NCBI GenBank assembly: GCA_026706345.1
Contig: JAPOYX010000232.1
Coordinates: 27,647 to 68,257 of the forward strand
Origin: Gemmatimonadota bacterium
GTDB lineage: Bacteria > JAAXHH01
Length of the DNA stretch: 40,611 nucleotides
Direction of reading: 5' to 3'
In this document: piece by piece, positions 16,359 to 37,607 of the stretch
How positions within the stretch are numbered: the first letter of the stretch is position 1
Layout of the letters: the number at the start of each line of letters is the position of its first letter
Position numbers and translations under genes: made by a program
The notes under the pieces: generated by a model
The model's input: the letters and a program-made list of their open reading frames with translations, nothing else
Databases searched by the model: none
What the model was told of the DNA's origin: nothing

Positions 16359-17216
16359 ATGAAGATCACGCGGTTCGAGATCCCCATGATGTCCGTGCAT
16401 AAAATTCGAAAAATCAACAAGTTATGCGTTTTTCTTCTGTTGTGTGGAACCGTGCCCGTCGCCTGTGCCGCGGAACCGGACCCCTCGGCTTCGCCGGCCG
16501 CCCAGGCCGCCAGGCCGATCCGCCCGGTCGTACCGGACACGTCCTGGACACCGCCGCGTCCCCGCTCCGTCCACGAGCGGCAGGACGAGCGGAACCGCAT
16601 GGTCGAGGAGATCCTGCACAAGTCTCCCATGGTCACGGACGGGGCCGTGCTCCGGGCCATGTTGGACGCGCCCCGCCACGTGTTCGTCCACGAACAGACG
16701 CGGCGCATCGCCTACGAGGATACGCCCCTGTCCATCGGGCTCGGGCAGACCATCTCCCAGCCTTACATCGTGGCGTACATGACCGAGTTGCTCGAAATCG
16801 ATCCGACGTCGAAGGTACTGGAGATCGGCACCGGATCGGGTTACCAGGCCGCGGTGCTTGCCCACCTTACGCCCCACGTGTACACCATGGAGATCATCGA
16901 ACCCCTGCTGGATCGAGCCCGCGGCCTGCTCGCCGAGGAGGGCTATGACGCGATTCAGACGCGTCACGGCGACGGCTACTATGGCTGGCCGGAGGCGGGC
17001 CCCTTCGACGCCATCATCGTCACCTGCGCGGCCGGCCATCTTCCGCCACTCCTGTGGTCCCAGCTCAAGCCCGGCGGCCGTATCGTCATTCCCATCGGCG
17101 AGATGACGGGCGTGCAGCGGCTCGTCGTAGTACGCAAGACGGCGGGCGGAAAACGAACCTCCCGCACCGTCATGTCCGTGCGCTTCGTGCCCATGACCGG
17201 CCAGGCTGAACAGTGA
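16359..17216 (+). CDS. pcm: Protein-L-isoaspartate O-methyltransferase with an N-terminal signal peptide
   Basis: A 285-residue SAM-dependent methyltransferase that repairs isoaspartyl residues in damaged proteins. The core spans about residues 75-275. GQTISQPYIVA (129-139) and motif I VLEIGTGSGYQAA (153-165) are diagnostic, and RHGDGYYGW and LKPGGRIVIPIG follow. The extra N-terminus has a basic stretch (HKIRKINK) and a hydrophobic core (LCVFLLLCGTVPVACAA), a Sec signal peptide with likely cleavage near residue 37-38, then a Pro/Ala-rich linker. The protein should therefore act in the periplasm, where the SAM supply is unclear. Starts at 16386 or 16389 are also possible and keep the signal. 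The stop overlaps the next gene's GTG (GTGA), implying coupling. Confidence 0.88.
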   Translation: MKITRFEIPMMSVHKIRKINKLCVFLLLCGTVPVACAAEPDPSASPAAQAARPIRPVVPDTSWTPPRPRSVHERQDERNRMVEEILHKSPMVTDGAVLRAMLDAPRHVFVHEQTRRIAYEDTPLSIGLGQTISQPYIVAYMTELLEIDPTSKVLEIGTGSGYQAAVLAHLTPHVYTMEIIEPLLDRARGLLAEEGYDAIQTRHGDGYYGWPEAGPFDAIIVTCAAGHLPPLLWSQLKPGGRIVIPIGEMTGVQRLVVVRKTAGGKRTSRTVMSVRFVPMTGQAEQ

Positions 17217-19732
17217 CACCGCGAACCGAAAACCCGAATACGCCTGAGGGTTTGTCGACAAATTACCTCGTTCAGGCTGCCGGCCTCGTGTCCTGCGGCG
17301 TCATCGCTTTCGAAATCGGGCTCATACGCGTGCTGCAGTACGCGAGCTGGTACCATTTCGCCTTCCTCGTCATCACCATCGCCCTGCTCGGCTTCGGCAT
17401 GAGCGGCACCATCCTGTCGCTGTGGCGCGGCTACCTCCTCCGGCACAGGCAAACAGTCCTTCCGGTCCTGGCTCTGCTTACGGCAGTCTCCATTCCTCTC
17501 ATGCTTCAGGCCGCGCAGCTTCTGCCCGTGACCGGCCGTTTCCTGCCCGGCCTGGTCGTCGGGCAACTGGCCTGGTGGGTGGGGTACTGGGCCCTGCTGA
17601 CCGTTCCCTTCGCCCTGGGTGCCACGGTCATAGGACTGGCCCTGATGTCCGCCGGGAAACGGCTGACCGCGGTCTACGCGTCGAACCTCATCGGCAGCGC
17701 CACCGGCGCGGTCGGAGTGACCATCGTCATGTACTTCGTGGAACCCGCCTGGCTGGGTTGCGTGACCGGGGCCGTAGTTCTGGCCGCGGCATGGCGCATC
17801 GACCGGCGGGCCTTGAGCGCCGGACTGGTTTGCGCGGGTGTGCTTGCCGGTGCACTGCTGGTGCTGCTCGATCCGCCTTCCATCCGCGTAGACGACGACA
17901 AATACCTCGCCTACGTGGACCGGGTCGAGGCGGGCGGCCAGGCCGACCAGCTGGCCCGTGCCTTCGGTCCGTCGGGGGTCGTGGAGGTATTCGGCAGCGA
18001 TACCTTTCACGACATGGCCTTCATGACCGACGATCGCGTGCCGCCGTCCATGGCGTCCATCGTCGTGGACGGCCACCAGGCAGGGTCCCTGTTGAGGATC
18101 GACGACGCGGACCAGGCTGAAGCCCTGGACGGCACGCTCATGGCCCTCCCCTACGGCCTGGTTCCATCCAGCCCCAGGGTTCTGCTGCTGGACGAGGTCG
18201 GCGGCGGCAACATATGGCTGGCCCGACGGAAGGGCGCGTCCTCGGTGGACATCGCGCAGTCGAACCGGGTCCTGCTGGACCTCCTGGCCGGACCATTGGA
18301 GGATGAAGGCGGCGTGGTATTCGGTCTGCCGGGCGTTGCGCTCCATCTGGTGGAATCGCGGGCGTTCCTCGAAGGAACGGCGGAAACCTTCGATCTCATT
18401 CAACTGGCGGGCATGGAATCCTGGTCGGCGGCCGCGGGAGGCCTGGAAGGACTTAACCAGGATCATCTCATGACGGTGGAGGGCGTGGCGGCCGCCCTGC
18501 GGCGTCTGTCACCGGATGGCATCCTCCACGTATCCCGCGGCATACAACTGCCGCCCCGGGACAACGCGAAGATCGCGGCGACGATCATTGCCGCCCTCGA
18601 ACAGTCGGGGATCGCCCGGTCTTTCTGGTCCGCCCGGCCAGCCCGACCGGGCCCGCACATCGCCATGGTCCGGGATTTCCTCGGCGTCTGCACCATGGTC
18701 AGGTCCAGGCCCTGGCGGGAAGCGGAGATCCGTCGGCTGCGGGACCTGATCGCGGAGAGGAATCTGACCCCGGTGTACTTCGAGGGGATAACGGACGGCG
18801 AACTGAACCGGCCCGACGAACTGCCCGGTCCACCGGGCGAAGAAGGCGACTACCTGTACCATGCGATGCTTTCCCTGTTGTCCGGGGACGCGGACGAAAC
18901 CGCGGGTTTTTTTAACGAGTGGCCCTTCGACGTCCGGCCGGCCACCGACGACCGCCCCTTTTTCGGCAACTTCGGCAAGCTGGCCGCCCTGCCCGAATTC
19001 AGGCGGGTATACGGGGCTGGCTGGCTGCTGCGGTCGGAACTGGCCTTTCTCTTCGTCCTGGCCGCGGCGGCCGTCGTGTCGTTCACGGGTCTGGTGCTGA
19101 TCCTCCTGCCCTTCGGTTTTCGCTCCGATATTCGTCGGGCGTCCGGCCGGTTGACCGCCGCGGTATACTTTCTGGCCGTCGGACTGGCCTACCTGGTGTT
19201 GGAAATCGCTTTTCTGTCCGGATTCCAGCGTCTCCTGGGCGATCCCGTGATCGGCGGAGCGGCCACCGTGGGGGGCTTTCTTCTCTGCTCGGGCCTGGGC
19301 AGCCTGGCGGCGAACCGCATTGCCGTGCTGCCCGGGGTTTCGCTGGCCAGGCTGGCTCTCGTGCCGGCGGTAATGGCTATACCGGTGTTCACCGGCCTGA
19401 TCCTTCTCACCCTGTACGGGGGCGCCTGGCCCCTGGCGCTCCGCCTCGCCGCGGCACTCTTCCTCATTGCGCCCCTGGCCTTCGCCATGGGCCTGCCTTT
19501 TCCCCTCGGACTGCAAAGGTTCGGAAAGCGGTCCGCCGCCCTGGTCCCCTGGGCCTGGTGCGTCAACGGGTGCGCCTCCGTCCTGGCCTCGCCGCTGGCG
19601 ATGATTATCGCCATGCAGTGGGGTTTTACGCTGACGGCCGCGGCCGCGGCGGCCTGCTACGTCGTCGCGGGGTGTGCCGCGGCAAGAGGGGCTTCGCCCC
19701 CTCCTCCAGCACAGCGGTCCGGATCCCGCTAA
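17213..19732 (+). CDS. Multi-pass membrane protein with a spermidine-synthase-like domain
   Basis: An 839-residue protein with three parts: an N-terminal membrane block (about residues 15-215, with FEIGLIRVLQYASWYHFAF), a soluble middle (about 220-595), and a C-terminal membrane block (about 605-825). The middle has a degenerate Rossmann layout of the polyamine aminopropyltransferase type (VLLLDEVGGGNIWLARRKGA, then TDDRPFFGNFGKL), as in the membrane-bound spermidine-synthase-like family. The classic GGGDG of true SpeE is replaced by DEVGGGN, so polyamine synthesis is uncertain. Start GTG 17213 overlaps the methyltransferase stop by four bases. It converges with the phosphatase gene 18 bp away, and no terminator is obvious between them. 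Confidence 0.78.
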   Translation: MTPRTENPNTPEGLSTNYLVQAAGLVSCGVIAFEIGLIRVLQYASWYHFAFLVITIALLGFGMSGTILSLWRGYLLRHRQTVLPVLALLTAVSIPLMLQAAQLLPVTGRFLPGLVVGQLAWWVGYWALLTVPFALGATVIGLALMSAGKRLTAVYASNLIGSATGAVGVTIVMYFVEPAWLGCVTGAVVLAAAWRIDRRALSAGLVCAGVLAGALLVLLDPPSIRVDDDKYLAYVDRVEAGGQADQLARAFGPSGVVEVFGSDTFHDMAFMTDDRVPPSMASIVVDGHQAGSLLRIDDADQAEALDGTLMALPYGLVPSSPRVLLLDEVGGGNIWLARRKGASSVDIAQSNRVLLDLLAGPLEDEGGVVFGLPGVALHLVESRAFLEGTAETFDLIQLAGMESWSAAAGGLEGLNQDHLMTVEGVAAALRRLSPDGILHVSRGIQLPPRDNAKIAATIIAALEQSGIARSFWSARPARPGPHIAMVRDFLGVCTMVRSRPWREAEIRRLRDLIAERNLTPVYFEGITDGELNRPDELPGPPGEEGDYLYHAMLSLLSGDADETAGFFNEWPFDVRPATDDRPFFGNFGKLAALPEFRRVYGAGWLLRSELAFLFVLAAAAVVSFTGLVLILLPFGFRSDIRRASGRLTAAVYFLAVGLAYLVLEIAFLSGFQRLLGDPVIGGAATVGGFLLCSGLGSLAANRIAVLPGVSLARLALVPAVMAIPVFTGLILLTLYGGAWPLALRLAAALFLIAPLAFAMGLPFPLGLQRFGKRSAALVPWAWCVNGCASVLASPLAMIIAMQWGFTLTAAAAAACYVVAGCAAARGASPPPPAQRSGSR

Positions 19733-19750: not shown

Positions 19751-21784
19751 TCAGCGCACGCGGCCGATCACGGCGGTCTGGTCGTCGAACTGTTCCGCGC
19801 CCAGAGAGAAGTCGCGTACGGAGGCGAGGATCCGGTCCAGGATGTCCTCGCTGGGCCTGTTGCGGTTTCGCGACAGGACCTGCCGGAGGCGCGCTTCCCC
19901 GAAATCTTCATCCTTCGTGTTGAGCGCATCCGTAATGCCGTCGGTATAGACCGCGAAAAGATCCCCCGGATCGACGCGGATGGAGGACTCTTCGAATTCC
20001 ACTTCCGGAAACAGCCCGATCGGACAACCGCCGTTTTCGAGCAGCGTGATATCATCGCGGCCTTCGCGAAGGAGCAGGGGCGGGTTGTGCCCGGCGCAGC
20101 AGTAATTCAGCCGGGATGTTTCTGCGTGGAAAGTGCAGATGAAAAGCGTGGCGAAACGCTCCGGCGCCGTGCTGTGGCACAGATAGACGTTGAGGCGGGA
20201 CATCAGCCTGGACAGCCGTTCCGGGCTTCCCTCCAGCGCCGGGTCCAGCGCCTGGGATCGCAGGGACGCCTGCAGTCCGGCCATCATGAGCGCCGCCGAA
20301 ATGCCCTTGCCCGAGATGTCGCCGACTACGATGTCCAGCGTTCGATTCCGGTGTTCGATGAAGTCATAGTAGTCGCCGCTGACCGTGCGGGCGGGTATCC
20401 AGGCGCCGGCCAGTTCGAGGGGGCCCCGCTGCGGCGGTACGTTGGGTATGAAACGGGCCTGCACCTCCCGGGCCATGGACAGTTCCGTTTCGATACGCTC
20501 TTTTTCTCTTTCCTCATTCATCAGCATCTCGATGCTCTGCGCCATGGTGTTGAAGGAGCGGCTGAGTTCGCCGAGTTGATCCCGCGTTTTTTCTTCCACG
20601 CGAAAGTCCATCCTGCCGGAGCGAATGGCTTCCGTTCCCTCGTACAGCCCGCGCACCGCCGTGGTGATCCGTCGCGAAACGAGCAGCCCGATCATGAAGG
20701 ATACCAGTTCGAAGCAGACAAATACCGCGCATAAGATGATGACTATGTAAAACAGTTCGGGCAGACCGGTCAGCAGCATGTCTGCACTGGCGGTGGCTTC
20801 GAATAGATGTATCGGGTCCAGATTCAGGCCCAGGATCATCAGGTTGTTTATGCCATGCTGCCAGGATCTGGCGGGGAAGACAAAGAACCAGGGTACCTGA
20901 AGCGTACCCAGTCCAAGCGGCAACTGGCGCCATTCTTCGGTCGAGGGAGGAGGCTCCACGGAGGAGAACTCCTCTAGATTTCCAGGTCCGGACTGAAACG
21001 AGACCTGCGCGCCTAAGTCTTCCCATATCTTCGTCCGGTAGTCTTCCCCCAGAGGCATGGAAGCGAGGACGTAGAGACTTCGGTCACGGAATCCGATCAC
21101 GCCGCCGGCGCGAAAGGACAGCGGGGAACGGCCGTCAGGCAGGCCGGTCGGCAGGCTGTCATAGACCATGTCGGCGAAATGGTCCTCCCGGAGCAACCAG
21201 TCCGGGTGTGGCTCCAGCGAATTGTAAGGCGGAGTTGCATGCACAGGACGGCCATCCTCGAATACGCTGATCGACAGGCCGGAAAGGTCCGGATTGTTCC
21301 GTACGATCTCGTCCACGATCCCGGCCAATGGCTGTCTGTCGTCCGAAGCCGTTCTCAGCAGGGCCAATTGTATCTCGAGCGGGAGGTGATCAAGCCGATC
21401 GGTCGTCTCTTCGATATGGCGGGCGACCAGGTTGGTACCCAGGGTTCCGATCCAGAGCCATCCGATGAGCAGGCTGACCAGAGAAGCGATGCAAAGGGGA
21501 GCGAGGCCGACGAAAATGAACGACACGAGCAGGCGGTTCCGGACTTTCCAAAGCAGACGGTTCCGAAGCCAGGAGAACGTCTTCCAGGTGTAGTAGATGG
21601 CGCTGACGGCCAGGAGGGTGATCGCCAGTACGAACACGACGAACCAGGTGAACAGAAAGGACGCCGCCGCCATGATCAGTCCCGCATAGGCGCAACGCTT
21701 CATCCACGTATCGGGGGCCAGCCGCTTCAACGTCCGGCGGAGGATATGCCCGAATCGTGCGTTTTGTAGTATTTCGCCCTTCAT
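19751..21784 (-). CDS. SpoIIE/RsbU-type PP2C phosphatase with HAMP and sensor region
   Basis: A 677-residue membrane signalling protein. Hydrophobic helices lie at about 33-64, 83-111 and 343-369, flanking an extracytoplasmic region (about 115-340) that probably senses a signal. A HAMP domain follows (about 370-424), then a linker coiled coil (EREKERIETELSMAREVQARF), then a PP2C SpoIIE-type phosphatase (about 455-677). Metal-site residues are present: VSGDYYDF (D471), GDISGKG (D489), TDGITDA (D615) and FDDQTAV (D667/D668). Such proteins dephosphorylate an anti-sigma-factor antagonist (STAS protein) to release a stress sigma factor. No antagonist, anti-sigma or sigma gene is nearby, so its partner is elsewhere. 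It is the last gene of the leftward block, 94 bp after the creatininase gene. Confidence 0.9.
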   Translation of the reverse strand: MKGEILQNARFGHILRRTLKRLAPDTWMKRCAYAGLIMAAASFLFTWFVVFVLAITLLAVSAIYYTWKTFSWLRNRLLWKVRNRLLVSFIFVGLAPLCIASLVSLLIGWLWIGTLGTNLVARHIEETTDRLDHLPLEIQLALLRTASDDRQPLAGIVDEIVRNNPDLSGLSISVFEDGRPVHATPPYNSLEPHPDWLLREDHFADMVYDSLPTGLPDGRSPLSFRAGGVIGFRDRSLYVLASMPLGEDYRTKIWEDLGAQVSFQSGPGNLEEFSSVEPPPSTEEWRQLPLGLGTLQVPWFFVFPARSWQHGINNLMILGLNLDPIHLFEATASADMLLTGLPELFYIVIILCAVFVCFELVSFMIGLLVSRRITTAVRGLYEGTEAIRSGRMDFRVEEKTRDQLGELSRSFNTMAQSIEMLMNEEREKERIETELSMAREVQARFIPNVPPQRGPLELAGAWIPARTVSGDYYDFIEHRNRTLDIVVGDISGKGISAALMMAGLQASLRSQALDPALEGSPERLSRLMSRLNVYLCHSTAPERFATLFICTFHAETSRLNYCCAGHNPPLLLREGRDDITLLENGGCPIGLFPEVEFEESSIRVDPGDLFAVYTDGITDALNTKDEDFGEARLRQVLSRNRNRPSEDILDRILASVRDFSLGAEQFDDQTAVIGRVR

Positions 21785-21878: not shown

Positions 21879-22685
21879 TCAATGCCGGTCGACCCTGGGC
21901 TCGATGGGCAGTTCGCGGAACTCCCGGATCAGGGCGGCCAGTTCTTCTGCCGCCGCCCGGTAGAGCTTTTCACCCTTCTCCACCGTGGCCACGGTAGCGT
22001 CGCCGATGACGCCGGACTCGGTGATCCGGGACCACTGGTCCATCATGCGGAGGGGAGAGGCCCCCTTGCCACGGATCCAGCCGCGCCAGTAGTACTTCGA
22101 CACGGGGATCTTCACCTCGCGCACCGCCTTGTCCATCTGGATGGCGTCGTCGTTGAGGTAGCGGTAGACCGAGGTCTCGATCTCGTCCGCGTGGGACTGC
22201 AGTTCGGAGTCGCCGATCTCCCACAACGTGGACTGGGCCATGCTCCACCAGTTGAGCGTCCCGCAGTGGGCGTCCGTTTCGATGACCGTCCGCCGCGACG
22301 CCGTTTCGAGGATGGTGGCGTTGGAGCCGTGGCCGTTGACGATGAGGATCTTCCGGAATCCGTGGTGGGCCACGCTCCGGGTGATGTCCACGACGAAATC
22401 CTGCAGGTGGTCGTCCCGCACCGTGATCGTCCCGGGGAAGTCCATGTGGTGGTCTTCGAAGCCGTAGGGCAGGGCCGGCAGGATCAGCACCTCGTCCGGA
22501 ATGAGCTTCGCGGCGCCTTCGCACACGCTGCTCACCAGGAAGGTGTCCACGTCCATGGGCATGTGGTAGCCGTGGTCTTCCGTGGAACCGACGGGCAGGA
22601 TGACGGCGGGCTGTTCCTTGACTTTTTCTTTCAGCTCGACCCAGGTGTAGTGATCGTAGCGGTAGGGGAGGGGCGGGCCTTTCAT
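21879..22685 (-). CDS. Creatininase family amidohydrolase
   Basis: A 268-residue metal-dependent amidohydrolase of the creatininase/MftE fold, starting at ATG 22685 with AAGGAGC five bases upstream; a longer frame from 22760 would overlap the neighbouring gene. Motifs in order are LPVGSTEDHGYHMPMDVDT (about 30-48, metal-binding Glu/His/Asp), VNGHGSN (116-122) and HADEIETS (165-172). All three match the family. Members hydrolyse cyclic amides such as creatinine or cleave small peptides. The context (two LLM flavoenzymes, aldolases, a nucleoside-type hydrolase) suggests a catabolic amide step, but the substrate is not defined. It follows the first LLM gene by 71 bp on the same strand. Confidence 0.88.
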   Translation of the reverse strand: MKGPPLPYRYDHYTWVELKEKVKEQPAVILPVGSTEDHGYHMPMDVDTFLVSSVCEGAAKLIPDEVLILPALPYGFEDHHMDFPGTITVRDDHLQDFVVDITRSVAHHGFRKILIVNGHGSNATILETASRRTVIETDAHCGTLNWWSMAQSTLWEIGDSELQSHADEIETSVYRYLNDDAIQMDKAVREVKIPVSKYYWRGWIRGKGASPLRMMDQWSRITESGVIGDATVATVEKGEKLYRAAAEELAALIREFRELPIEPRVDRH

Positions 22686-22756
22686 AGCTGCTCCTTCAGT
22701 AGTGCGCTTTCCGTAAGTCTGGAACGTTGTTCGGGACTCGGCCAGGACCGTCCGTG

Positions 22757-23827
22757 TCACGCGCTCATACGCGGTATGACTTCGTTCACGAAGAGGTCCA
22801 TGCTGTGGAGCCAGGAATCTTTGTCGTCCCAGTCGTACCCCATGAGGATCAGCGTGCCGAAATCGCCGGTCTCCTCACGCATCAGGTCCAGCCGGCGGAC
22901 CACCTCGTCCACGTCTCCGTGGATGATCTGTTCCGTCATCAGGTAGTCCAGGTCGCATTCCGAATCGGGCATGTCCGGGTCCCGCTTGAGCATCTTCCGG
23001 CCCAGGCCCTGGTCGAAGAGGCCGCCGAGGTATTCGAAGCCCTTTCCCAGGGAGTTGGTGCGCACTTTCGCTGCCGCTTCTTCCTTGCTGTCGGCGAGGA
23101 AGATGCTGCGGCAGACGCGCCAGTCGTTGCGGTCGGGCGTCCGTCCGGCGCCCAGGGCCGCCTGCTCATACACCCGCCAGTTGTCGGCCACCACGTTGCT
23201 CGTGGATATGTTGGCGCTGATCGGATACCAGCCCTTCTCGCCGGCGGTCTTCATGGTGGAGGAGTTCATGCTCATCCCCGGTGCGCAGATGGGCGGGTGG
23301 GGCCGCTGCAGCGGCTTGTGGATGTAGCCGATCAGCGTGTCGTGGTCCACGTTTTCTTCCAGGTCGATCTCCCAGAAGCGGCCCTTCAGGTGATAGGGCG
23401 GGTCCTGGCTCCAGATCTGCAGGATCATCTCGGCCGATTCGACGGCCATGGCGCTGTTGAGCTTCGGATCGATCTTGTAGAGTTCGAGGTCGGACGTCAC
23501 GCTGCCCGGACCGAAGCACAGGTTGAGACGCCCGTGGGAGAGCTGGTCCATGAAGGCCAGCCGGCTGGCCACGTGGGCCGGATGGTGATAGGGCAGGCAG
23601 GTGGGCGCCGTGCCGAGCCGGATGGTGTGGGTCATGGCCAGGGCCTTGCCGATGAAGGCCTCGGGCAGGACGATGTTCTCGTACTTCATGGTGTGGTGTT
23701 CGCCGATCCAGAACTCGGTGAAACCCAGTTCCTCGCAGCGCACGATCAGCTCCAGGTCCTCGTCGTGACACTGCGCCGCCGGTTTGACCGGGTCGTGGAA
23801 GGGCATGATGAACATCCCGTATTTCAT
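22757..23827 (-). CDS. LLM class flavin-dependent oxidoreductase, copy 1
   Basis: A 356-residue bacterial-luciferase-like monooxygenase. The N-terminus reads YGMFIMPFHDP, then LGFTEFWIGEHH, whose second His is the family's conserved position, and the LNLCFGPG segment is typical of the barrel core. GGAGA lies before the ATG. Its paralogue at 23940-25028 is clearly related across the whole length (the same EFWIGEHH, LPYHHPAHVA and DMPDSEC blocks), so this is a local duplication. The family uses reduced FMN and oxygen to oxidise small organics. The substrate is unknown. The ribosome-binding site is intact and the gap to the next gene is 71 bp. Confidence 0.88.
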   Translation of the reverse strand: MKYGMFIMPFHDPVKPAAQCHDEDLELIVRCEELGFTEFWIGEHHTMKYENIVLPEAFIGKALAMTHTIRLGTAPTCLPYHHPAHVASRLAFMDQLSHGRLNLCFGPGSVTSDLELYKIDPKLNSAMAVESAEMILQIWSQDPPYHLKGRFWEIDLEENVDHDTLIGYIHKPLQRPHPPICAPGMSMNSSTMKTAGEKGWYPISANISTSNVVADNWRVYEQAALGAGRTPDRNDWRVCRSIFLADSKEEAAAKVRTNSLGKGFEYLGGLFDQGLGRKMLKRDPDMPDSECDLDYLMTEQIIHGDVDEVVRRLDLMREETGDFGTLILMGYDWDDKDSWLHSMDLFVNEVIPRMSA

Positions 23828-23939
23828 GTTTTTCTCCAGTGTAGTGTTGGTGGCGCCTCGTTCCCGCCTTTTGCGGGGAAGCCAGCCGTGTTTTCGGCGC
23901 CAGCTTTCTGTTCATTCACGCGAAAACCGCCCGCCGTAG

Positions 23940-25028
23940 TCAGGCGTAGCCCAGCGACCGGTTGAACCTCGGCATGACTTCGTTCGCGAAGAGCTCGAGG
24001 CAGTTGATCCAGGCCGCCCTGTCGTCCCAGTCGTGGGCGGTCATGATGAAGGTGCCGAATTCGCCCGTCTCCTCCATCATGCGGTGCAGCTGCCGCACGC
24101 ACTCGTCGGGGTCGCCGGCGATGACCTGCTCGTCCATCATGTAGTCCAGCGTGCACTCCGAGTCGGGCATGTCCGGGTCCCGCTTCCACAGCCCCCGTCC
24201 CGGTCCCAGGTCGGTGAGCTGCATGATGTAGTCCAGGCACTTGCCCAGGGAGTTGTTCCGGGCATGTTCGCGGGCTTCCTTCGTCGTCTCCGCCACGAAG
24301 ATGTTGCGGGAGATCTTCCACTTGCGCCTGTCCGGTTCCTGGTCCGCTGACCGGGCGCCGTCGGCGTAGGTCTCCCAGTGGTTCGCCAGGACGTTGGCCG
24401 CGACCATGTGGTGGCTGAAGGGAGAATAGCCCTTCTGTCCCGCGATGCGGGTCCCGGCCGAATCCCGCATGATCACCGGGACAGACAGAGGAGGATGGGG
24501 CTTCTGCAGGGGCTTCAGGTAAACCCCCATGCCCAGGTCTTCGCGGACTTCCCGGCCCACGTGCATCTGCCAGAAACGTCCGTTGATGTCGTAGGGTGGA
24601 TCGGTCGTCCACAGGGTCATGATCATCTGGATCGCCTCGCCCACCATGGCGCCGGAGTCCTCGGGGCGGATCCCGTACATCTCCATGTCGGTCGGGATGG
24701 CGCCGGGACCGAAACAGATGTTCAACCGGCCGTGGGAGAGGTGATCCAGGAAGGCCAGGCGGCCGGCCACGTGGGCGGGATGGTGGTAGGGCAGGCACAC
24801 GGGCGCGGCGCCGAGCCGCATGCGGCTGGTGAGTCCCAGGGCCTTGCCGATGAAGATCTCGGGCATGACGATGTTCTCGTAGCTCGACGAGTGGTGCTCA
24901 CCGATCCAGAACTCGCTGAACCCGAGCTCCTCCGATCGCACCAGCAGTTCCATGTCTTCGTCGTAGCACTGCCCCGGAGGCTTGGTCGGATCATGCACCG
25001 GCATGAGGAACATGCCATAGTCGATCAT
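23940..25028 (-). CDS. LLM class flavin-dependent oxidoreductase, copy 2
   Basis: A 362-residue paralogue of the gene at 22757, with YGMFLMPVHDP at the start, LGFSEFWIGEHHSS, then CLPYHHPAHVAGRLAF and NICFGPGAIPTD. It shares the family core and most of the middle, with differences in the loop near residues 190-230 that could change substrate. GGGAGA lies six bases before the ATG at 25028. The genes are 112 bp apart. Two side-by-side LLM monooxygenases often act on related substrates or form a heteromer, though neither is shown here. A separate flavin reductase is not visible in the window. Confidence 0.88.
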   Translation of the reverse strand: MIDYGMFLMPVHDPTKPPGQCYDEDMELLVRSEELGFSEFWIGEHHSSSYENIVMPEIFIGKALGLTSRMRLGAAPVCLPYHHPAHVAGRLAFLDHLSHGRLNICFGPGAIPTDMEMYGIRPEDSGAMVGEAIQMIMTLWTTDPPYDINGRFWQMHVGREVREDLGMGVYLKPLQKPHPPLSVPVIMRDSAGTRIAGQKGYSPFSHHMVAANVLANHWETYADGARSADQEPDRRKWKISRNIFVAETTKEAREHARNNSLGKCLDYIMQLTDLGPGRGLWKRDPDMPDSECTLDYMMDEQVIAGDPDECVRQLHRMMEETGEFGTFIMTAHDWDDRAAWINCLELFANEVMPRFNRSLGYA

Positions 25029-25085
25029 GCTGTTCTCCCTTTTCTCATTGAATTCCGGTCCGGCCCGACTTCGCCTTGATGCCGG

Positions 25086-25141
25086 GGTTACAGCAGTCCC
25101 TGACGGTCACAACAACTCCTGCGGTCACAACAGCCCTTTGC
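25086..25141. repeat. Three tandem ~19-bp units ending in the NDT-like gene's stop codon
   Basis: Units 25086-25104, 25105-25122 and 25123-25141 share a GGT(T/C)ACA(G/A)CA start. The third is the gene's last codons with the stop TCA (TGA on the minus strand). The first has TTA and the second TCA at the same place, so each copy carries a stop triplet. Confidence 0.8.
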
Positions 25142-25811
25142 GGCGCTTGTTTTCGATCGTTTGCTCTATGAATTCGGGTCCGCACAGGGCGTCGAATCCG
25201 CTGCCGGGAAACCGCGCCGCCCATGCATAGACGGTCCTGATCCGCGCTTCGTCATCGCCGAAGGTGGAGGGTACGGTCCGTACCGCGTCCAGCCCTTCGA
25301 TGACGGCGTCCGCGATCCGGTTGTAGAGCCGATCCTTCCAGCGGTTCGGCGGCCCGCCTGGACCGCCTGGACCGCCTGGACCGTCCGCCTTCCTCGCTTC
25401 CTGGTACCAGGCCATGGCGTTGAACTGGACCTTCTTCGTCCTGGGATAGAAAGAACACATGAGATTCCAGTCGTCGCCTTCCCGTTCCTGGTCTCCGGAC
25501 GCCCGGAAATCCGACCGCAGGAGGACGGTGGGTATGTCGAGCATCTTGGCCGTCATGAACTCCACCACCGTGCCCGAGTCCAGGTCGGTCCCGTCGAAGT
25601 TGAACAGACCCAGGTCGCAGGCCATGACCTGCATGAGGTCCTGGTTCCGTATGTCGACCATCCGGCCCGTGGCCTGTTCGAGGTCCTGGGGCACGACGCA
25701 GGCGTAACGTCCCCCGGACCGCCGGTCGACGGCGTCGGCGAGGATGGCGTTGCCGGCCAGATGCTTATGGTCGAACAGATCGCCGGCGAAGTACACGGTG
25801 AAAGTGGTCAT
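25125..25811 (-). CDS. Nucleoside 2-deoxyribosyltransferase-like protein
   Basis: A 228-residue protein with the NDT/DRTGG-like Rossmann fold. It begins VYFAGDLFDHKH, close to the IYLAGPLF start of nucleoside deoxyribosyltransferases. FNFDGTDLDSGTVVEF holds the DGT..DSGT..E pattern with the catalytic Glu position. These enzymes swap or hydrolyse the base on 2'-deoxyribonucleosides, or in relatives cleave other N-glycosides. A Gly-Pro run (GPGGPGGPGGPP) in the middle comes from three 9-bp repeats (25357-25383), unusual for the family, and probably forms a flexible surface loop. It is 17 bp downstream of the HpaI-like gene. The true substrate is not defined. Confidence 0.8.
   Translation of the reverse strand: MTTFTVYFAGDLFDHKHLAGNAILADAVDRRSGGRYACVVPQDLEQATGRMVDIRNQDLMQVMACDLGLFNFDGTDLDSGTVVEFMTAKMLDIPTVLLRSDFRASGDQEREGDDWNLMCSFYPRTKKVQFNAMAWYQEARKADGPGGPGGPGGPPNRWKDRLYNRIADAVIEGLDAVRTVPSTFGDDEARIRTVYAWAARFPGSGFDALCGPEFIEQTIENKRRKGLL
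25357..25383. repeat. Three 9-bp repeats in frame inside the NDT-like gene
   Basis: CCTGGACCG occurs three times in a row on the plus strand, encoding Gly-Pro-Gly units on the minus strand. A close 9-mer (CCTGGACGG) is tandem at 28685-28702. Confidence 0.9.
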
Positions 25812-25828
25812 GGTCAGGCGCGGTCCGC

Positions 25829-26686
25829 TTACCTTCCGGTATGGCGTTTTCCGATTTCGGCCGCCTCCCGGGACGCGTTGGCGACCATCACGCCCTCGTC
25901 GATCATGTCGGTCACGTTGTCAGGCGTCACCCCGTTCAGGAAGGCGACGCCGTTGGCCTTGGAGGCCTTCAGCACGGCGGCCCGCGCGGCGATCATCTCG
26001 GGCGGATAGGGTGGATCGTGGCCGTCCGGGTATCCGAAGGACATCCCCATGTCGCCCGGCCCCCATTCGGCGAAGGCGATGCCGGGCACGCGCAGGCTTT
26101 CTTCCACATTGGCCAGGGCACGCTGGTTTTCGATCTTGAGGCCGAGCATCAACTCCCCATGCGGGTTCAGAGGCCAGACGTCGGCCTTCTGCACGTAGTC
26201 CTGGACGGCGAGTCCCCACGCGCCGGCCGCGAAGCCCTGGCCCCCCGACCCGCGCTGCCCCACTTCGAGTCCGGCTCCCACGCTCTGGGTCTGGAAGGGA
26301 TACCGGGCGGCTTCCACGAAGGCTCGCACCGCGCCCGGCGTCTCCGCGTGGCAAAGCAGCATCCCGTGCACGCCCAGGGTCAGGAGTTGCTTGACCATCC
26401 AGGCGTTCGCCCGCATGACCGCCTCGCTGGTGCCGTTCGTGGGCAGCGTGACGATGATGCAGGGCGTCAGGTGTCCGCCGGACGTGGGCCCCGCATCCAC
26501 CAGGCCGGTCATGAAAGCCTTGAGACTCGGCAGGTCGAAGAGGCCGTGCTCCATCTCGACGACCAGGTAGTCCTCCCATCGCCCGGAGGCTTCGACGCCC
26601 TTTTCGTAACTCAGTTCGCCGGCGCCGCCGTAGTAAATGGGCTGGCCCCGCTTGAGCAGTTCCACGGCACGGTTTACGCTGGGCAT
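25829..26686 (-). CDS. HpcH/HpaI aldolase-citrate lyase family protein, copy 1
   Basis: A 285-residue class II-type aldolase with the TIM-barrel layout. VVEMEHGLFDLPSLKAFM carries the Glu/His metal and base positions, and FAEWGPGDMGMSFG contains the family's loop near the C-terminal active site. It is somewhat longer than HpaI (about 260) because of a Gly-rich loop (GQRGSGGQGFAAGAWG). The expected reaction is reversible aldol cleavage of a 2-oxo-acid or 4-hydroxy-2-oxo product. Only 17 bp separate it from the NDT-like gene downstream. It differs from the second aldolase at 27886, so they may act at different steps. Confidence 0.83.
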   Translation of the reverse strand: MPSVNRAVELLKRGQPIYYGGAGELSYEKGVEASGRWEDYLVVEMEHGLFDLPSLKAFMTGLVDAGPTSGGHLTPCIIVTLPTNGTSEAVMRANAWMVKQLLTLGVHGMLLCHAETPGAVRAFVEAARYPFQTQSVGAGLEVGQRGSGGQGFAAGAWGLAVQDYVQKADVWPLNPHGELMLGLKIENQRALANVEESLRVPGIAFAEWGPGDMGMSFGYPDGHDPPYPPEMIAARAAVLKASKANGVAFLNGVTPDNVTDMIDEGVMVANASREAAEIGKRHTGR

Positions 26687-26765
26687 TTCGTGGTCCTTTC
26701 AGCTTGTCGTCTGTGCGTCAATCCCGATGACCAGCCGCGCTCCTTGCTTCAGCGATCGATGCGCT

Positions 26766-27926
26766 TCAAGACTGTTCGAAGGGTAGACGATCCAGCAGGC
26801 CCGTATCTTCCGCCAGCCCCTTGAGGTTCTCCGCCGCCATGCGCGTGAGCGGCACGCCCTCGCGCCGGGAAACGGCTTCGCTGTCGTGCTCCATCTCGCC
26901 GGGGACGTAGGTACGGTCCGCCCCCGCCGCCTTCGGCGCTTCCCGCATCCGACGGACGAGTTCGTCCACCCGGTCGTAGAAGGCATCCACGGGCATCATG
27001 GCGCCGGCGTCCACGGCGATGAAATTGTGGCCCTCGTCGCAGGTCGCGTCCGTCACCTTCCCCCAGGACACGATATCCGTGGTGACCCCCGCGCCGGCCA
27101 GGACCCCGGCCAGGGACTCCACGAAAAGCGCGAGACCGTATCCCTTGTGGCCGCTGAAGGGCGTCAGGGCCCCGGTGAAGGTGAAGACGCCGGGATCGGT
27201 CGTGGGAAGCCCTTCCGCATCGGTGAGCCATCCCTCCGGCAGCGGTTCGCCGCGGGCCTGGTACGAGGCCACCTTGCCCCCCGCCACGGTGCTCATGGCG
27301 ATGTCCAGTACGATCGGCGGCTGAGACCGGGCCGGGACGGCGTAGGAGAAGGGATTGTTGCCGATCGCCGCGCCACGCCCGCCCGGGATGTTCATGACCA
27401 CGTCGGTGTTGCTCATGGCGATCCCGATCATGTTCCGTTCAAGGGCCATGAGCGTATAGGCCGACGCCGCGCCGAAGTGATTGCTCCGCCGGACGGTGGT
27501 CATGCCGATCCCGCACGCCGCGGCCTTGTCGATGGCCACCGACATGCCGTAGTGCGAAGCCACCATGCCCACGGTCCGGCGGGCGTCGATCCGCGCCCAC
27601 GCGAGACCCTGGTCCGTGATCTCGGGCGACGCGCCAACGTCGATGCCGCCGTCACGCATCATCCAGACGTAGCGCCGGAGGGAAACCGTGCCGTGGGTGT
27701 AGATCCCCCGCATGTCGGTGCGGATCAGCACGTCGGCGGTCAATCGGGCGTCGGCCTCCGACAATCCCGCTTCGACCATCGCCGCCGTGCAGAAATCCGC
27801 CAGGGGTTCGGCCGGTGTTCGCAGGACGTAGAGCTTTTCCTGCGTGGATGCCTGGTTGGCGTCGGTGCTCAGTGCCGGTGCCTTTCTAGCCGCCGCGGAT
27901 TCCGGCGGCGACCCGTTCGAAACCAC
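26766..27926 (-). CDS. Ldh/MDH2 family NAD(P)-dependent dehydrogenase (malate, lactate or ureidoglycolate type)
   Basis: A 386-residue member of the malate/L-lactate dehydrogenase family that includes ureidoglycolate dehydrogenase. Key blocks are TDMRGIYTHG (family signature), RRSNHFGAASAYTL, NIPGGRGAAIGNNPFSYA and GYGLALFVESLAGVLAG. The frame's first start is GTG 27926, which overlaps the upstream aldolase by 41 bases without a ribosome-binding site. A CTG at 27872 follows AAGG by eight bases, just past the aldolase stop, and is a better-supported but rare start; the protein would then have 368 residues. The substrate is uncertain. Neighbours (aldolases, NDT-like, creatininase) make a 2-hydroxy acid from nucleobase or sugar-acid breakdown plausible. 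Confidence 0.85.
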   Translation of the reverse strand: MVSNGSPPESAAARKAPALSTDANQASTQEKLYVLRTPAEPLADFCTAAMVEAGLSEADARLTADVLIRTDMRGIYTHGTVSLRRYVWMMRDGGIDVGASPEITDQGLAWARIDARRTVGMVASHYGMSVAIDKAAACGIGMTTVRRSNHFGAASAYTLMALERNMIGIAMSNTDVVMNIPGGRGAAIGNNPFSYAVPARSQPPIVLDIAMSTVAGGKVASYQARGEPLPEGWLTDAEGLPTTDPGVFTFTGALTPFSGHKGYGLALFVESLAGVLAGAGVTTDIVSWGKVTDATCDEGHNFIAVDAGAMMPVDAFYDRVDELVRRMREAPKAAGADRTYVPGEMEHDSEAVSRREGVPLTRMAAENLKGLAEDTGLLDRLPFEQS

Positions 27927-28665
27927 TGATCAGGTAGCTGTAGTCGCAGTCGACCTGTATCCAGTCGACACCCCGGTCGCTCCAGCGCCGGCCGAAGGCG
28001 TATTGCGATCCCATGCCCATGCCGATAGAGAGGCCCGCCTCGTGCCCCACGTCTATGATGCGCTCCATGGCAGTCACGACCTCGTCGTCCTCGAGTCGGC
28101 CCAGGGTGCTGATCGAGCCGCTCAGGTCCACGGGGCCGATGACCAGACTGTCCAGGCCGGGTATGGCCGCGATTTCCTCCAGTTCCCGGTAGGCCTCGGC
28201 ATGTTCGATCTGAACCGAGACGAAGAGGTCCCGGTTCATGTCGTCCACGTAGGCGTCGATGTCCGAGAAGGCCCGACCGTAATTGGAGGGTCGGTGGGGT
28301 CCGAATCCCCGGTCTCCCGCGGGCGGGTAACGACAGGCGTCGACCACGTGCCGCACCTCGGCGGCGGAGCGGACCTGCGGGACGACGATGCCGGGAGCGC
28401 CGGCGTCGAGGATGGGTTTGACGTGCCCGATGGTACTTGAAGGCACCCGGACCAGCGCGGCGGTGCGCCCCGCCCGCGCAGCCATCAGGTGCCGCGTGAC
28501 CGACTCCAGGTTCATCGCCGTGTGCTCGGTGTCGATCCAGATGAAATCAGCCGAATCGCACAGCGCCTCGGTTACGGCCGGATCGGTGAAGGTCACGGCC
28601 GGGCCGAGACAGAGCTCGCCGCCGGCAAGCCGTTCTCTGAACGCTCTGATTTCCCTGGAAAACAA
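27886..28665 (-). CDS. HpcH/HpaI aldolase, copy 2
   Basis: A 259-residue 2-oxo-acid aldolase of the HpaI type, the usual family length. WIDTEHTAMN has the conserved Asp/Glu/His region, DAGAPGIVVPQVRSAAEV is the metal-binding core, and CRYPPAGDRGFGP closes the usual motif. IGPVDLSGS fits the C-terminal loop. The chosen start is TTG 28665, six bases after AGGGAG. A longer frame to 28725 runs through the 9-bp repeat array and encodes a Gly/Pro/Arg tail unlike the family. The predicted reaction is aldol cleavage to pyruvate plus an aldehyde. The gene begins the seven-gene cluster, 38 bp after the PhoX-like gene. Confidence 0.86.
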   Translation of the reverse strand: MFSREIRAFRERLAGGELCLGPAVTFTDPAVTEALCDSADFIWIDTEHTAMNLESVTRHLMAARAGRTAALVRVPSSTIGHVKPILDAGAPGIVVPQVRSAAEVRHVVDACRYPPAGDRGFGPHRPSNYGRAFSDIDAYVDDMNRDLFVSVQIEHAEAYRELEEIAAIPGLDSLVIGPVDLSGSISTLGRLEDDEVVTAMERIIDVGHEAGLSIGMGMGSQYAFGRRWSDRGVDWIQVDCDYSYLISGFERVAAGIRGG

Positions 28666-28684: not shown

Positions 28685-28711
28685 CCTGGACGGCCTGGAC
28701 GGTCTAGACGG
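28685..28711. repeat. Three 9-bp tandem units at the PhoX-like gene's stop codon
   Basis: CCTGGACGG at 28685-28693 and 28694-28702, then TCTAGACGG at 28703-28711, which holds the stop (CTA). The array runs from inside the gene's end into the 38-bp gap to the aldolase. Confidence 0.85.
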
Positions 28712-30116
28712 CGCCTTCCCGCCACGGTCCCCAGATGGCGTAGGTCAGTCCGGGCCGCTGCATGTTGACAAAGAGGGTCTCGCCGTCCGGGCTGAAGGTC
28801 GCGCCGGCGAATTCACCCCGGTAGGCGATGCCGGCGACGTCCCGGGCCACGTCGAATACGCGCCCGTCCTTCGTCAGGCCCCGGATGTGCTGTATGCCGT
28901 CCCGGTTGTCTTCGCAGATGATAAGTCCGCCGCGGGGACTCACGCAGACGTTGTCGGGCGCGGCCATGAGCGAAGCGTCGGGCGACTCGAACAGGAGGGT
29001 CAGCACACCTTCGTCCGGACTCTCGGGGCGGTATTCCCAGACCTGTCCCAGGCGCTCGTCGCCCCCGGTAGTCGCCGTGAAGAAGATGCGGCCGTTGCCG
29101 TACCAGCATCCCTCCAGACGGTCGAAGGAGGCGCCGCCCTTGTCCGCCCCTTCCTTGTAGACCAGGTTCCGGTCCAGACCGGCCCCCGCGGGATCGGGGT
29201 CTTCGATCTCCACCCAGGACACGGGCAGGGAAGCGCCCATGGTCTGCCCTTTGCGCGTGTCGTACCCGGTCCTGTCCTTGACGGCGAGCATGCGCAGGCG
29301 TCCGCCCCGGGCAAGCTCCCCGGGATAATCGGGAATGTACTGGTAGAAACCACTCGGATTCTGGTCTTCGGTTTCGTACACGTAGCCGGTGGCGGGATCG
29401 ACGGCTATGGCCTCGTGGACGAAGCGTCCCATCTGGGTCAGGGGTTCGGCCGGCACGCTCTCCTCGGCATCGGCCGGCACTTCGAAGCAGTACCCGTGCT
29501 CCCTGTCGTATCCGCCCAGGTACTGGAGCCAGCGCGAACTGAAGAACCGGTCCGTCCCCATCGTCGTCTCTTCGCATGTGATCCAGGTGCCCCAGGGCGT
29601 GGGGCCGCCGGCGCAGTTGTGGAGCGTCCCGCCCACGCTGACGAAATCGCGGACCAGTTCGCGGGTCCCGGGATCGACGACGAGCGTGGTGACGCCGCCG
29701 GGCGCCGTGGGATCGTAAGCCGCGGCCCGGTCGCCGATGGCCTCGACCGGTTTGCCCGTGTTGATTTCGTGGTTGCGCAGGAGCCGGATCATCCCGTCCG
29801 CGTCAAAGGCGGCCATGCCGTCGTGGGCGGGCGGCGTGGGATGGCCGTCCGACATGAGGCCGCCCTTCTTGCCGAAGACGGTATAGGAGAATCTCGGCGG
29901 CAGCTCGAGCAGGGTTTCCCCCGTGTTTTGTGATGGCACGGGCGACAGGGGTCCGTATCCCCCTTCCCCGCGGGGCGCAACAAGGTGGGCGAACCCGTCG
30001 GCCATGGCCCGTGCCCGGCGGGCGATCAAACCCTGCAGCGCCGAGGCGCCGACGGTCAAAGCTCCAACGGATACGGCGGTATTGCGAATGAAGGAACGGC
30101 GGGTCAGTCGGGACAC
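28704..30116 (-). CDS. Tat-exported PhoX/DUF839 family protein
   Basis: A 470-residue exported protein. TRRSFI (5-10) is a twin-arginine motif, followed by a hydrophobic h-region to about residue 30. The mature part is a DUF839/PhoX beta-propeller: GTLHNCAGGPTPWGTWITCEET is the family signature region, then RFVHEAIAVDPATGYVYETED and DNVCVSPRGGLIICEDN. PhoX enzymes are calcium- and iron-dependent alkaline phosphatases that release phosphate outside the cytoplasm. Many DUF839 members are unproven, so the catalytic call is moderate. A weak minus-strand promoter (TTGACT-18-CATAGT) may lie at about 30179-30208. It precedes the aldolase gene and may be co-transcribed. Confidence 0.85.
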   Translation of the reverse strand: MSRLTRRSFIRNTAVSVGALTVGASALQGLIARRARAMADGFAHLVAPRGEGGYGPLSPVPSQNTGETLLELPPRFSYTVFGKKGGLMSDGHPTPPAHDGMAAFDADGMIRLLRNHEINTGKPVEAIGDRAAAYDPTAPGGVTTLVVDPGTRELVRDFVSVGGTLHNCAGGPTPWGTWITCEETTMGTDRFFSSRWLQYLGGYDREHGYCFEVPADAEESVPAEPLTQMGRFVHEAIAVDPATGYVYETEDQNPSGFYQYIPDYPGELARGGRLRMLAVKDRTGYDTRKGQTMGASLPVSWVEIEDPDPAGAGLDRNLVYKEGADKGGASFDRLEGCWYGNGRIFFTATTGGDERLGQVWEYRPESPDEGVLTLLFESPDASLMAAPDNVCVSPRGGLIICEDNRDGIQHIRGLTKDGRVFDVARDVAGIAYRGEFAGATFSPDGETLFVNMQRPGLTYAIWGPWREGAV

Positions 30117-30256: not shown

Positions 30257-31123
30257 TCATCCCAGTTTTATGCATACCAGTCCGGCGACGATCATCAACA
30301 CCGCGCACACTTTCATCGGGGTGACCCGCTCTTTCAGAAAGACGAATCCCAGCACGGCGCCGAGGACCACGGCGAACTCCCGCAGCGCGACGATGTAGCC
30401 CACCTGCCCCATGGTCATGGCAAACAGGATCATCAGGTAAGCCGCGGTGGATCCGACGCCGATCAGGGCCGCGGCACGCCAGGTCTCCGCCAGTTTCCGC
30501 CAGAGACGTCCGCGGTCGCGGGCGGCGACCATCGGCGTGACCAGCGCACCGCTCAGCATGAACATGGCGAAGATATAGACGACGGGATGGACGATACTCA
30601 CGCCCACTTTGTCCACGAGGGAGTAGCTCACGATCGTGGCGCCCACCCCCAGCGCCGAGACGAAGCCGTGCCTTGCGTCCCGCGCGTACATGAGGACAGG
30701 TACGCCCAGGGACAGTATGCCGATGCAGATCAGGGCTATGCCGGACACGCCGAAGGGCGTCAGCGATTCACCGAGCAGAAGCCATCCCAGGAAACCCGTG
30801 AGACCTATCCCGGAGCCGCGGGCGATGGGGTATACCAGGGAGATCTCGCCGTGTTGGTAGGCCCTGGCCAGCAGCAGGAAGTAAAAGGCATGAATGATTC
30901 CCGTAGCCACTATAAACAACCAGCCGTCCGCCATCATCGACAGGAATCCCGCCGTGCCCTGCGAAACGACCACGCCCGCCACGAAAGGAAGAAGCACGAG
31001 GCCGCTGACCCACAGGGACCACCAGAACACGGTGAGGTCCCCGGCGTTTCGGCGGGCTACGAAGTTCCAGGTGGCATGCAGTACGGCGGAGAGCAGGACG
31101 AAGACGAAGAGTTCAGTGGACAT
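30257..31123 (-). CDS. EamA/DMT superfamily membrane transporter
   Basis: A 288-residue protein almost entirely of hydrophobic helices, about ten predicted, with the two-fold repeat of the drug/metabolite transporter family. The N-terminal half starts ELFVFVLLSAVLHATWNF, and the second half ends with EFAVVLGAVLGFVFLKERVTP, a typical EamA sequence. No signal peptide is needed. The substrate is unknown; amino acids, purines, organic acids or drug-like compounds are possible. It lies 140 bp upstream of the PhoX-like gene on the same strand and divergent from the FtsX-like permease gene. Its place at the head of the leftward block suggests export or uptake of a metabolite handled by the catabolic genes, but that is an inference. 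Confidence 0.85.
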   Translation of the reverse strand: MSTELFVFVLLSAVLHATWNFVARRNAGDLTVFWWSLWVSGLVLLPFVAGVVVSQGTAGFLSMMADGWLFIVATGIIHAFYFLLLARAYQHGEISLVYPIARGSGIGLTGFLGWLLLGESLTPFGVSGIALICIGILSLGVPVLMYARDARHGFVSALGVGATIVSYSLVDKVGVSIVHPVVYIFAMFMLSGALVTPMVAARDRGRLWRKLAETWRAAALIGVGSTAAYLMILFAMTMGQVGYIVALREFAVVLGAVLGFVFLKERVTPMKVCAVLMIVAGLVCIKLG

Positions 31124-34791: not shown

Positions 34792-34865
<74 letters not shown>

Positions 34866-34876
34866 CTACGATGGAT

Positions 34877-36687: not shown

Positions 36688-36713
36688 GACAGACGGATCG
36701 GGAAGGCTGTCGG

Positions 36714-36790
36714 TCGGAAGTGGATGCGCGACCGTCGTTTAGAAGCGGATGTGCGCGCCCTCGCTTAGAAGCGGGCGCTCTCGCTGTCGG
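36714..36790. repeat. Three tandem ~25-bp units ending in an SDR gene's 3' end
   Basis: Units at 36714-36738, 36739-36764 and from 36765 align on a GAAG(T/C)GG core with trailing TCGC/TCGT. The last is the SDR gene's final codons with its stop (TTA). The other two lie outside the gene. Confidence 0.75.
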
Positions 36791-37607
36791 GCAGTATGCC
36801 GCCTTCGTCCCTCGGCAGCACGGAGAGGGGCAGTGCGATGGAGGAACCCGCGTCGACGGGGAGGGTGATCCCCGTGATCCATTGGGACTCGTCGCCGGCC
36901 AGGAACATGGCCGCGTGGGCCACGTCCCAGGCCGTCCCCTCGGTGCCCAGCGGCGTGGATCGCCGGCGGAGTTCCCGATGATCGTCCGAGAGTCCAGCAG
37001 TGAAGGATGCGTGCAGGTGTCCCGGGGCGATGCAATTCACGCGGATTCCGTCCCTGCCGTGCTGTACCGCCATATTGATGGTCAGGGCAATGACCCCGCC
37101 CTTGGAAGTTTCGTAGGCGATGTTGTACGACCACCCGCTGCGGAAACCGTCGATGGACGCCACGTTGATGATGGATCCGCCCCCGGACTCCATCATCGCC
37201 GGTATGGCAAACCGGCTCGCGAGCATCATGGCCTTGACATTTACCGCCATGATCTCGTCCCAGTGTTCCTCCCGCACGTCCACCACCGTGCCGGGATAGC
37301 TGAGCCCCACGTTGTTGAAGAGGACGTGTAGCCCGCCGTAGCGGTTGACAGCGGTTTCGGTCATGGTCCGGCAGTCGTCCGACCGGGTCACGTCGCCGGT
37401 GAAGACCGAGGCCGTGCCTCCTTCCTCTTCGATGACGGCCAGAGTCTTTCCGGCGTTCTCCTCGCTACGGTCCGCCAGCAGCACCTGCGCGCCCTCGCGG
37501 GCGAACTGCACGGCGGTCGCCTGTCCTGTGCCCGCCACCTCGCCCTGGGTTCCCGCGCCCGTCACGATGGCCACTTTACCGTCCAGGCGGGGTTTCCGCG
37601 TCGTCAT
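36765..37607 (-). CDS. SDR family oxidoreductase, copy 1
   Basis: A 280-residue classical short-chain dehydrogenase. The N-terminal loop reads VTGAGTQGEVAGTGQA, an extended version of the usual TGxxxGxG with a few extra residues. NVASIDGF gives the catalytic Ser, and YETSKGG the Tyr-x-x-x-Lys. FNNVG and IRVNCIAPGHLH are typical. The preferred start is ATG 37607 (the second Met, 6 bases after AAGGA); ATG 37613 is two codons upstream. It follows the second SDR gene in an operon and may act on the same substrate, for example a hydroxy acid or polyol. The stop region is part of a tandem duplication. Confidence 0.87.
   Translation of the reverse strand: MTTRKPRLDGKVAIVTGAGTQGEVAGTGQATAVQFAREGAQVLLADRSEENAGKTLAVIEEEGGTASVFTGDVTRSDDCRTMTETAVNRYGGLHVLFNNVGLSYPGTVVDVREEHWDEIMAVNVKAMMLASRFAIPAMMESGGGSIINVASIDGFRSGWSYNIAYETSKGGVIALTINMAVQHGRDGIRVNCIAPGHLHASFTAGLSDDHRELRRRSTPLGTEGTAWDVAHAAMFLAGDESQWITGITLPVDAGSSIALPLSVLPRDEGGILPDSESARF

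Follow-up and report, generated by a model that had tools for sequence, protein, structure and literature searches.

Which compound might be broken down by the seven consecutive enzyme genes on the minus strand at positions 21879-28665 of the DNA analysed here? The stretch (the window) comprises 40,611 nucleotides of contig JAPOYX010000232.1 (positions 27,647 to 68,257; assembly GCA_026706345.1, 4.49 Mb in 293 contigs), from a group that is named Candidatus Latescibacterota in this analysis. In reading order the genes encode an HpaI-type class II aldolase (ald1), an Ldh_2 family dehydrogenase (Ldh), a divergent enzyme of the HpaI superfamily (ald2), a nucleoside 2-deoxyribosyltransferase-fold protein (NDT), two paralogous luciferase-like monooxygenases (LLM1 and LLM2) and a creatininase-family metallohydrolase. 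A first-pass annotation had seen in them a catabolic cluster and had drawn a route for nucleosides or nitrogen-containing rings, with N-glycoside cleavage, RutA-like ring oxidation and amide hydrolysis. The cluster itself is retained here, as conserved, co-directional and very likely catabolic. The nucleoside route is weakened, and nucleosides or pyrimidine-like rings are on balance disfavoured as substrates. We favour, with a probability of about 0.38, a set of enzymes that would act on a carbocyclic or aromatic-derived carbonyl compound, with oxygen insertion by FMNH2-dependent LLMs, hydrolysis by the creatininase-family protein, a redox step by Ldh and aldol cleavage by ald1.

All seven proteins score above their Pfam cut-offs. 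The gene order and coordinates of the first-pass annotation were right, and start sites alone were adjusted. The ald1 gene (27886..28665; PF03328 HpcH_HpaI, 93 bits) most likely begins with a TTG codon at 28665, giving a protein of 259 amino acids, and the start of the Ldh gene (26766..27926; PF02615, 359 bits), which overlaps the end of ald1, is uncertain. For the creatininase-family gene (21879..22685; PF02633, 232 bits) the predicted start is 22685 (268 amino acids) and not the first GTG of the open reading frame (ORF) at 22760, because conservation begins at 22685. The intergenic gaps across the cluster are about 20-110 bases. Ratios of non-synonymous to synonymous substitution (dN/dS) against two congeners are 0.06-0.25 for each of the seven genes, therefore all seven are real genes under purifying selection. 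Scans for promoters and terminators gave no clear excess over chance; a promoter-like site lies just upstream of the neighbouring PhoX gene.

The regions were compared in the 16 available genomes of the phylum, twelve from the genus of the window and four outgroups from other genera (G001, G013, G014 and G015). The order PhoX-ald1-Ldh-ald2-NDT-LLM1-LLM2-creatininase family-SpoIIE is identical in all twelve genus genomes; it lies on a single contig in nine and is consistent across contig breaks in the other three. The first-pass annotation had named the loss of gene order in relatives as grounds for refutation, and the order was found to be kept. Identity of ald1 to its congeners is 84-95%. The conserved unit is larger than seven genes, with PhoX and an EamA-type transporter before the cluster and a HAMP-SpoIIE phosphatase after it in the same order in congeners.

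An indication of the possible chemistry comes from LLM1 (23940..25028; PF00296 Bac_luciferase, 139 bits) and its paralogue LLM2 (22757..23827; PF00296, 115 bits). The best match of the LLM1 and LLM2 profile is the 3,6-diketocamphane 1,6-monooxygenase 4uwm (208 bits, E 1e-60), with profile positions 1-354 aligned, and the next-best luciferase-like matches reach at most 114 bits. Against RutA the profile scores 16 bits (E 0.03-0.05), and on this comparison a RutA-like pyrimidine oxidation was rejected. By fold and near full-length similarity both proteins resemble the diketocamphane-type class of type II Baeyer-Villiger enzymes, in which FMNH2 is supplied by free diffusion (PMC6352141). FMNH2 dependence is likewise predicted for LLM1. 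The genome contains no match to cofD of F420 synthesis, which makes F420 dependence of the LLMs unlikely, and it holds a single PF01613 flavin reductase. In a phylogenetic tree LLM1 and LLM2 form separate supported clades whose split predates the diversification of the order, and the duplication is kept order-wide except in G001. Five congeners carry a third LLM (LLM3) between the two, which the tree derives from LLM2 within the genus lineage; it was probably lost in the genus genomes without it, that of the window included.

The remaining enzymes fit their families to different degrees. The closest structures to ald1 are the HpaI-type aldolases 7v8t and 3qz6, and its His, Arg, Glu and Asp align with the usual catalytic positions. 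In HpaI the His, Arg70, Glu and Asp have catalytic roles. The second enzyme, ald2 (25829..26686; PF03328, 39 bits), keeps Glu46, His47, Glu186 and Asp212 among 86 relatives, but the position of Arg70 is taken by Thr80 (Thr in 71 of 86), so that the full HpaI residue set is not present. Arg92, which lies within an insertion, may replace Arg70, and Trp96, Lys184 and Glu207 are invariant in the family. We regard ald2 as a member of an uncharacterised family spread over many phyla, for which the label of pyruvate aldolase is unproven because the His and acid residues are kept but the arginine is not. The AlphaFold model of ald2 (pLDDT 60) was too poor and was not used. In many Caldilineaceae the ald2 relative adjoins genes that resemble, by eye, the E1 and E2 subunits of a 2-oxoacid dehydrogenase.

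For Ldh, an NAD(P)-dependent 2-hydroxyacid-type dehydrogenase, the closest structures are 1v9n and the L-sulfolactate dehydrogenase 2x06, with ureidoglycolate dehydrogenase more distant, and it stays below the cut-off of every NCBIfam equivalog model. The first-pass labels "Ldh/ureidoglycolate-type" and "creatininase" hold for the families but not for the functions. A true ureidoglycolate dehydrogenase AllD was rejected (TIGR03175, 166 bits against a cut-off of 496), as was a true creatininase, EC 3.5.2.10 (TIGR04448, 115 bits against 235); the hydrolase has HGSN where creatininase has HYEN. Its metal-site motif (ExH...D, NGHG) is present, with Glu61, His63, Asp72 and His144 (positions in the 293-aa ORF) invariant in ten sequences. 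NDT (25125..25811; PF05014, 41 bits, cut-off 28.8) has an extra C-terminal part and carries the residues Asp66, Asp78 and Glu84 of an NDT-like motif (DSGTxxE-type, Glu84 catalytic), invariant in 13 sequences, and may transfer or hydrolyse N-glycosides. No NCBIfam model matched it. A search with its AlphaFold 2 model (pLDDT 68) placed NDTs and DNPH1 first, with weak scores (best E 0.005). At 25350-25390 the NDT gene encodes a Gly/Pro-rich stretch whose length differs by about 30 residues from one species to another.

Much of the gene order recurs in the four outgroup genera, where it belongs to a larger island. On one contig of G013 the genes are PhoX, HPPD, FAA hydrolase, HgmA, flavin reductase, ald1, AMH2, Ldh, ald2, NDT, LLM1, creatininase family, PhyH, PabB and SpoIIE, with LLM2 on a separate contig; AMH2 denotes an Amidohydro_2 protein of the outgroup islands, a lactonase-like amidohydrolase. 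In G014 one contig ends with PhoX, HPPD, HgmA and the 5' part of ald1, and another carries the 3' end of ald1, followed by AMH2, Ldh, ald2, LLM1, LLM2, creatininase family, PabB and SpoIIE; since ald1 is split between them, the two contigs presumably join. G015 has the same core without an NDT or creatininase-family ortholog, and on a second contig HPPD, FAA hydrolase, HgmA and flavin reductase. In G001 one contig carries PhoX, HPPD, HgmA, AMH2 and part of Ldh; on a second one the end of Ldh is followed by NDT, a piece similar to LLM1 and the creatininase-family gene. There is no LLM match above 42% and no ald2 in this genome. The piece in the place of the LLMs (L205:4160-4473) matches LLM1 residues 1-46 and 317-361 and is either a deletion remnant or an assembly fault.

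Each of the four outgroup genera has HPPD, HgmA-like and AMH2 genes, and all twelve genus members lack them. HPPD (430 bits in G013, above the cut-off of 277) and the HgmA-like genes lie within or beside the island in each outgroup (L046, L142, L153, L154), and a flavin reductase gene belongs to the island in G013 and adjoins HgmA in G015. The best model match of AMH2 in G013, G014 and G015 is L-fuconolactonase, a weak one (38 bits against a cut-off of 400). NDT is present in all twelve genus genomes, G001 and G013 and missing from G014 and G015, both of which have LLM1 and LLM2. Upstream of the island, G014 and G015 carry GH29 fucosidase genes and a PhyH gene, and G014 a mandelate-racemase-type enolase (L153:6171-9160; L154:6824-11002). 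The island is one recoverable order with separable modules. The full order would be PhoX-HPPD-FAA hydrolase-HgmA-flavin reductase-ald1-AMH2-Ldh-ald2-NDT-LLM1-LLM2-creatininase family-SpoIIE, of which the genus form appears to be a trimmed version. Gene gain and loss shows the modules to be separable, and therefore a single linear seven-step route is unlikely.

Outside the phylum the cluster was not recovered. Relatives of ald2 were found at 470 public genome loci (Chloroflexota, Poribacteria, Alphaproteobacteria, Acidobacteria and others), and among the best 80 of these no locus from outside the Latescibacterota had the rest of the cluster beside it. In one search 6 of 272 genomes outside the phylum contained a relative of LLM1 with an E value of 1e-70 or lower, none above 38%; the best LLM1 matches in genomes carrying an ald2 relative were 57% and 51%. 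The cluster was also missing from 12 regions around LLM1 relatives, mostly from other phyla. A cluster common to other phyla and traceable through ald2 relatives was rejected on these results. Within the genomes searched, the operon is probably specific to one order of Candidatus Latescibacterota, where "order-specific" holds for the sampled genomes and sampling is limited.

In the favoured reading, a flavin reductase encoded elsewhere would supply LLM1 and LLM2 with FMNH2, and the two would add oxygen to a carbonyl compound, cyclic or chain-like, by a Baeyer-Villiger type of insertion. The creatininase-family metallohydrolase would then open a lactone, ester or amide, with the help of AMH2 in relatives. 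Ldh would convert a 2-hydroxy/2-oxo acid, ald1 would split a 4-hydroxy-2-oxo acid into pyruvate and an aldehyde, and ald2 and NDT would perform accessory steps. The conserved order, the similarity of the LLMs to diketocamphane monooxygenase, the lack of cofD, the flavin reductases, the lactonase-like match of AMH2, the ald1 residues and the HPPD/HgmA neighbours are consistent with such a scheme. Each reaction is predicted from family membership, and the sequence of steps and the choice of a carbocyclic or aromatic-derived substrate over a nucleoside are predictions as well. The homogentisate neighbours suggest the breakdown of aromatics, and the fucosidase and enolase genes near the island in G014 and G015 suggest sugars, so that either substrate class may apply.

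Several points speak against this reading. Members of the LLM superfamily also hydroxylate, desulfonate and cleave C-N bonds, and family closeness is no guide to chemistry. The known creatininase-family enzymes mostly cut C-N bonds. The lactonase match of AMH2 is weak, and AMH2 is missing from the window's genus. G001 is without an intact LLM ortholog or ald2 yet keeps AMH2, Ldh, NDT and the creatininase-family gene, whereas G015 keeps the LLMs without an NDT or creatininase-family ortholog. The modules separate, and therefore the genes may serve more than one pathway. A more specific version, somewhat unlikely, is an undescribed aerobic ring-opening pathway of Latescibacterota, in which tandem diketocamphane-type LLMs would form a lactone, a creatininase-fold lactonase would hydrolyse it, and HpaI-superfamily enzymes, one of a new family without the usual arginine, would complete the degradation of a natural cyclic or aromatic compound.

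Among the alternatives, the one that survives best does without a single pathway. The locus would be a stable neighbourhood of independent catabolic enzymes, for tyrosine/homogentisate and other compounds, held together by shared regulation or slow rearrangement. The modules have been gained and lost independently among the five genera, relatives of ald2 and the LLMs in other phyla lie in unrelated surroundings, and PabB and SpoIIE, without an evident link, are conserved neighbours as well. However, the tight spacing on a single strand, a relative order that several genera share despite gain and loss of other genes, and the retention of the LLM1-LLM2 pair across the order outside G001 argue against it, and we consider independence somewhat unlikely.

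The nucleoside or N-heterocycle route of the first-pass annotation is improbable. In it, NDT would cleave an N-glycoside, the LLMs would oxidise the ring, the creatininase-family protein would cut an amide, and Ldh and the aldolases would finish the carbon skeleton. The invariant motif acids of NDT and its presence throughout the genus and in G001 and G013 agree with this, as do the C-N bonds that are the usual target of creatininase-family enzymes, and G001 keeps NDT and the creatininase-family gene though the LLM between them is a remnant. The LLMs, however, are far closer to diketocamphane monooxygenase than to RutA, NDT is absent from G014 and G015 despite the kept LLMs, and the creatininase and ureidoglycolate dehydrogenase models were missed by wide margins. 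The cluster contains no recognisable nucleoside kinase, phosphorylase or nucleobase permease, and in the outgroups AMH2 and homogentisate-pathway genes share the island. Catabolism of a sugar acid from L-fucose or another deoxysugar, by a lactonase, a dehydrogenase and a 2-keto-3-deoxy acid aldolase, in which the LLMs would take off a sulfonate or some other group, is quite improbable: it has for it the fucosidases and the enolase and nearest matches to L-fuconolactonase (AMH2), deoxyrhamnonate hydrolase (FAA hydrolase), L-sulfolactate dehydrogenase (Ldh, NCBIfam) and YfaU (ald2, PDB), but all of these matches are weak or below equivalog cut-offs, the fucosidase, enolase and AMH2 lie outside the window's cluster, and a diketocamphane-type LLM has no clear role in it.

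Upstream of the cluster, on the same strand, lie a gene for a PhoX-family protein with a Tat-like signal (28704..30116; PF05787, 250 bits), in the same place in congeners, G001, G013 and G014, and the gene of the EamA-type transporter (30257..31123; PF00892, 75 bits; TIGR03340, 156 bits, cut-off 288), kept in the genus and in G001. The HAMP-SpoIIE serine phosphatase gene (19751..21784, minus strand; PF07228, 155 bits) follows downstream in congeners, G013, G014 and G015. At 16359-19732, convergent with the operon, a protein-L-isoaspartate methyltransferase gene precedes an 839-aa ORF that has no Pfam match; in G001 (L205) a similar-looking methyltransferase and an 854-aa membrane-like ORF stand after the creatininase-family gene. 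At 35014-37331 a thiamine-diphosphate enzyme gene (PF02775/02776/00205), just preceded by a tRNA-Met (34792-34866), stands before a 215-aa ORF that matches no Pfam family.

As the first-pass annotation had supposed, this enzyme combination was not met in the literature searched, which left out most subscription journals; what is new is the combination and not the enzymes themselves. If the Baeyer-Villiger reading is true, the operon offers a concrete case for testing the idea, so far based on genome annotation, that uncultured bacteria use FMN monooxygenases to open rings of refractory or host-derived organic matter, and it would add new reactions for creatininase-fold and HpaI-like enzymes. 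If it is false, a conserved operon without an assigned substrate is still at hand, and the gain and loss of genes over five genera illustrates the way in which such islands are put together.

One of the closest known systems is the diketocamphane branch of camphor degradation on the CAM plasmid of P. putida, for which type II Baeyer-Villiger steps are established. Both LLMs match its monooxygenase over nearly full length, and FMNH2 is expected from a separately encoded reductase, as for that enzyme (PMC6352141). The cluster here, however, has no recognised cytochrome P450, CoA ligase or beta-oxidation genes, and it combines an HpaI aldolase, Ldh_2 and a creatininase-family protein with two or three LLM paralogues in tandem. 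The Rut pathway shares with it a distant member of the LLM superfamily, RutA, but beyond the low score between them (16 bits, E 0.03) no RutB-F homologues were recognised in the cluster. Among the HpaI/YfaU class II pyruvate aldolases ald1 is canonical by its residues, whereas ald2 belongs to a separate family, spread over several phyla, and has no counterpart of Arg70. The homogentisate pathway (HPPD, HgmA, FAA hydrolase) is absent from the twelve genomes of the window's genus, but in the four outgroup genera its genes are part of the island or stand on a contig that probably adjoins it. In SAR202 bacteria, FMN monooxygenase paralogues have been proposed to open the rings of recalcitrant organic matter by way of lactones (PMC5395668); the main text of that paper mentions neither creatininase nor aldolase. 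In the present operon two LLMs stand in fixed order with an aldolase and a hydrolase, unlike the SAR202 paralogues, but the FMN monooxygenase class and the type of proposed lactone route are the same (PMC5395668).

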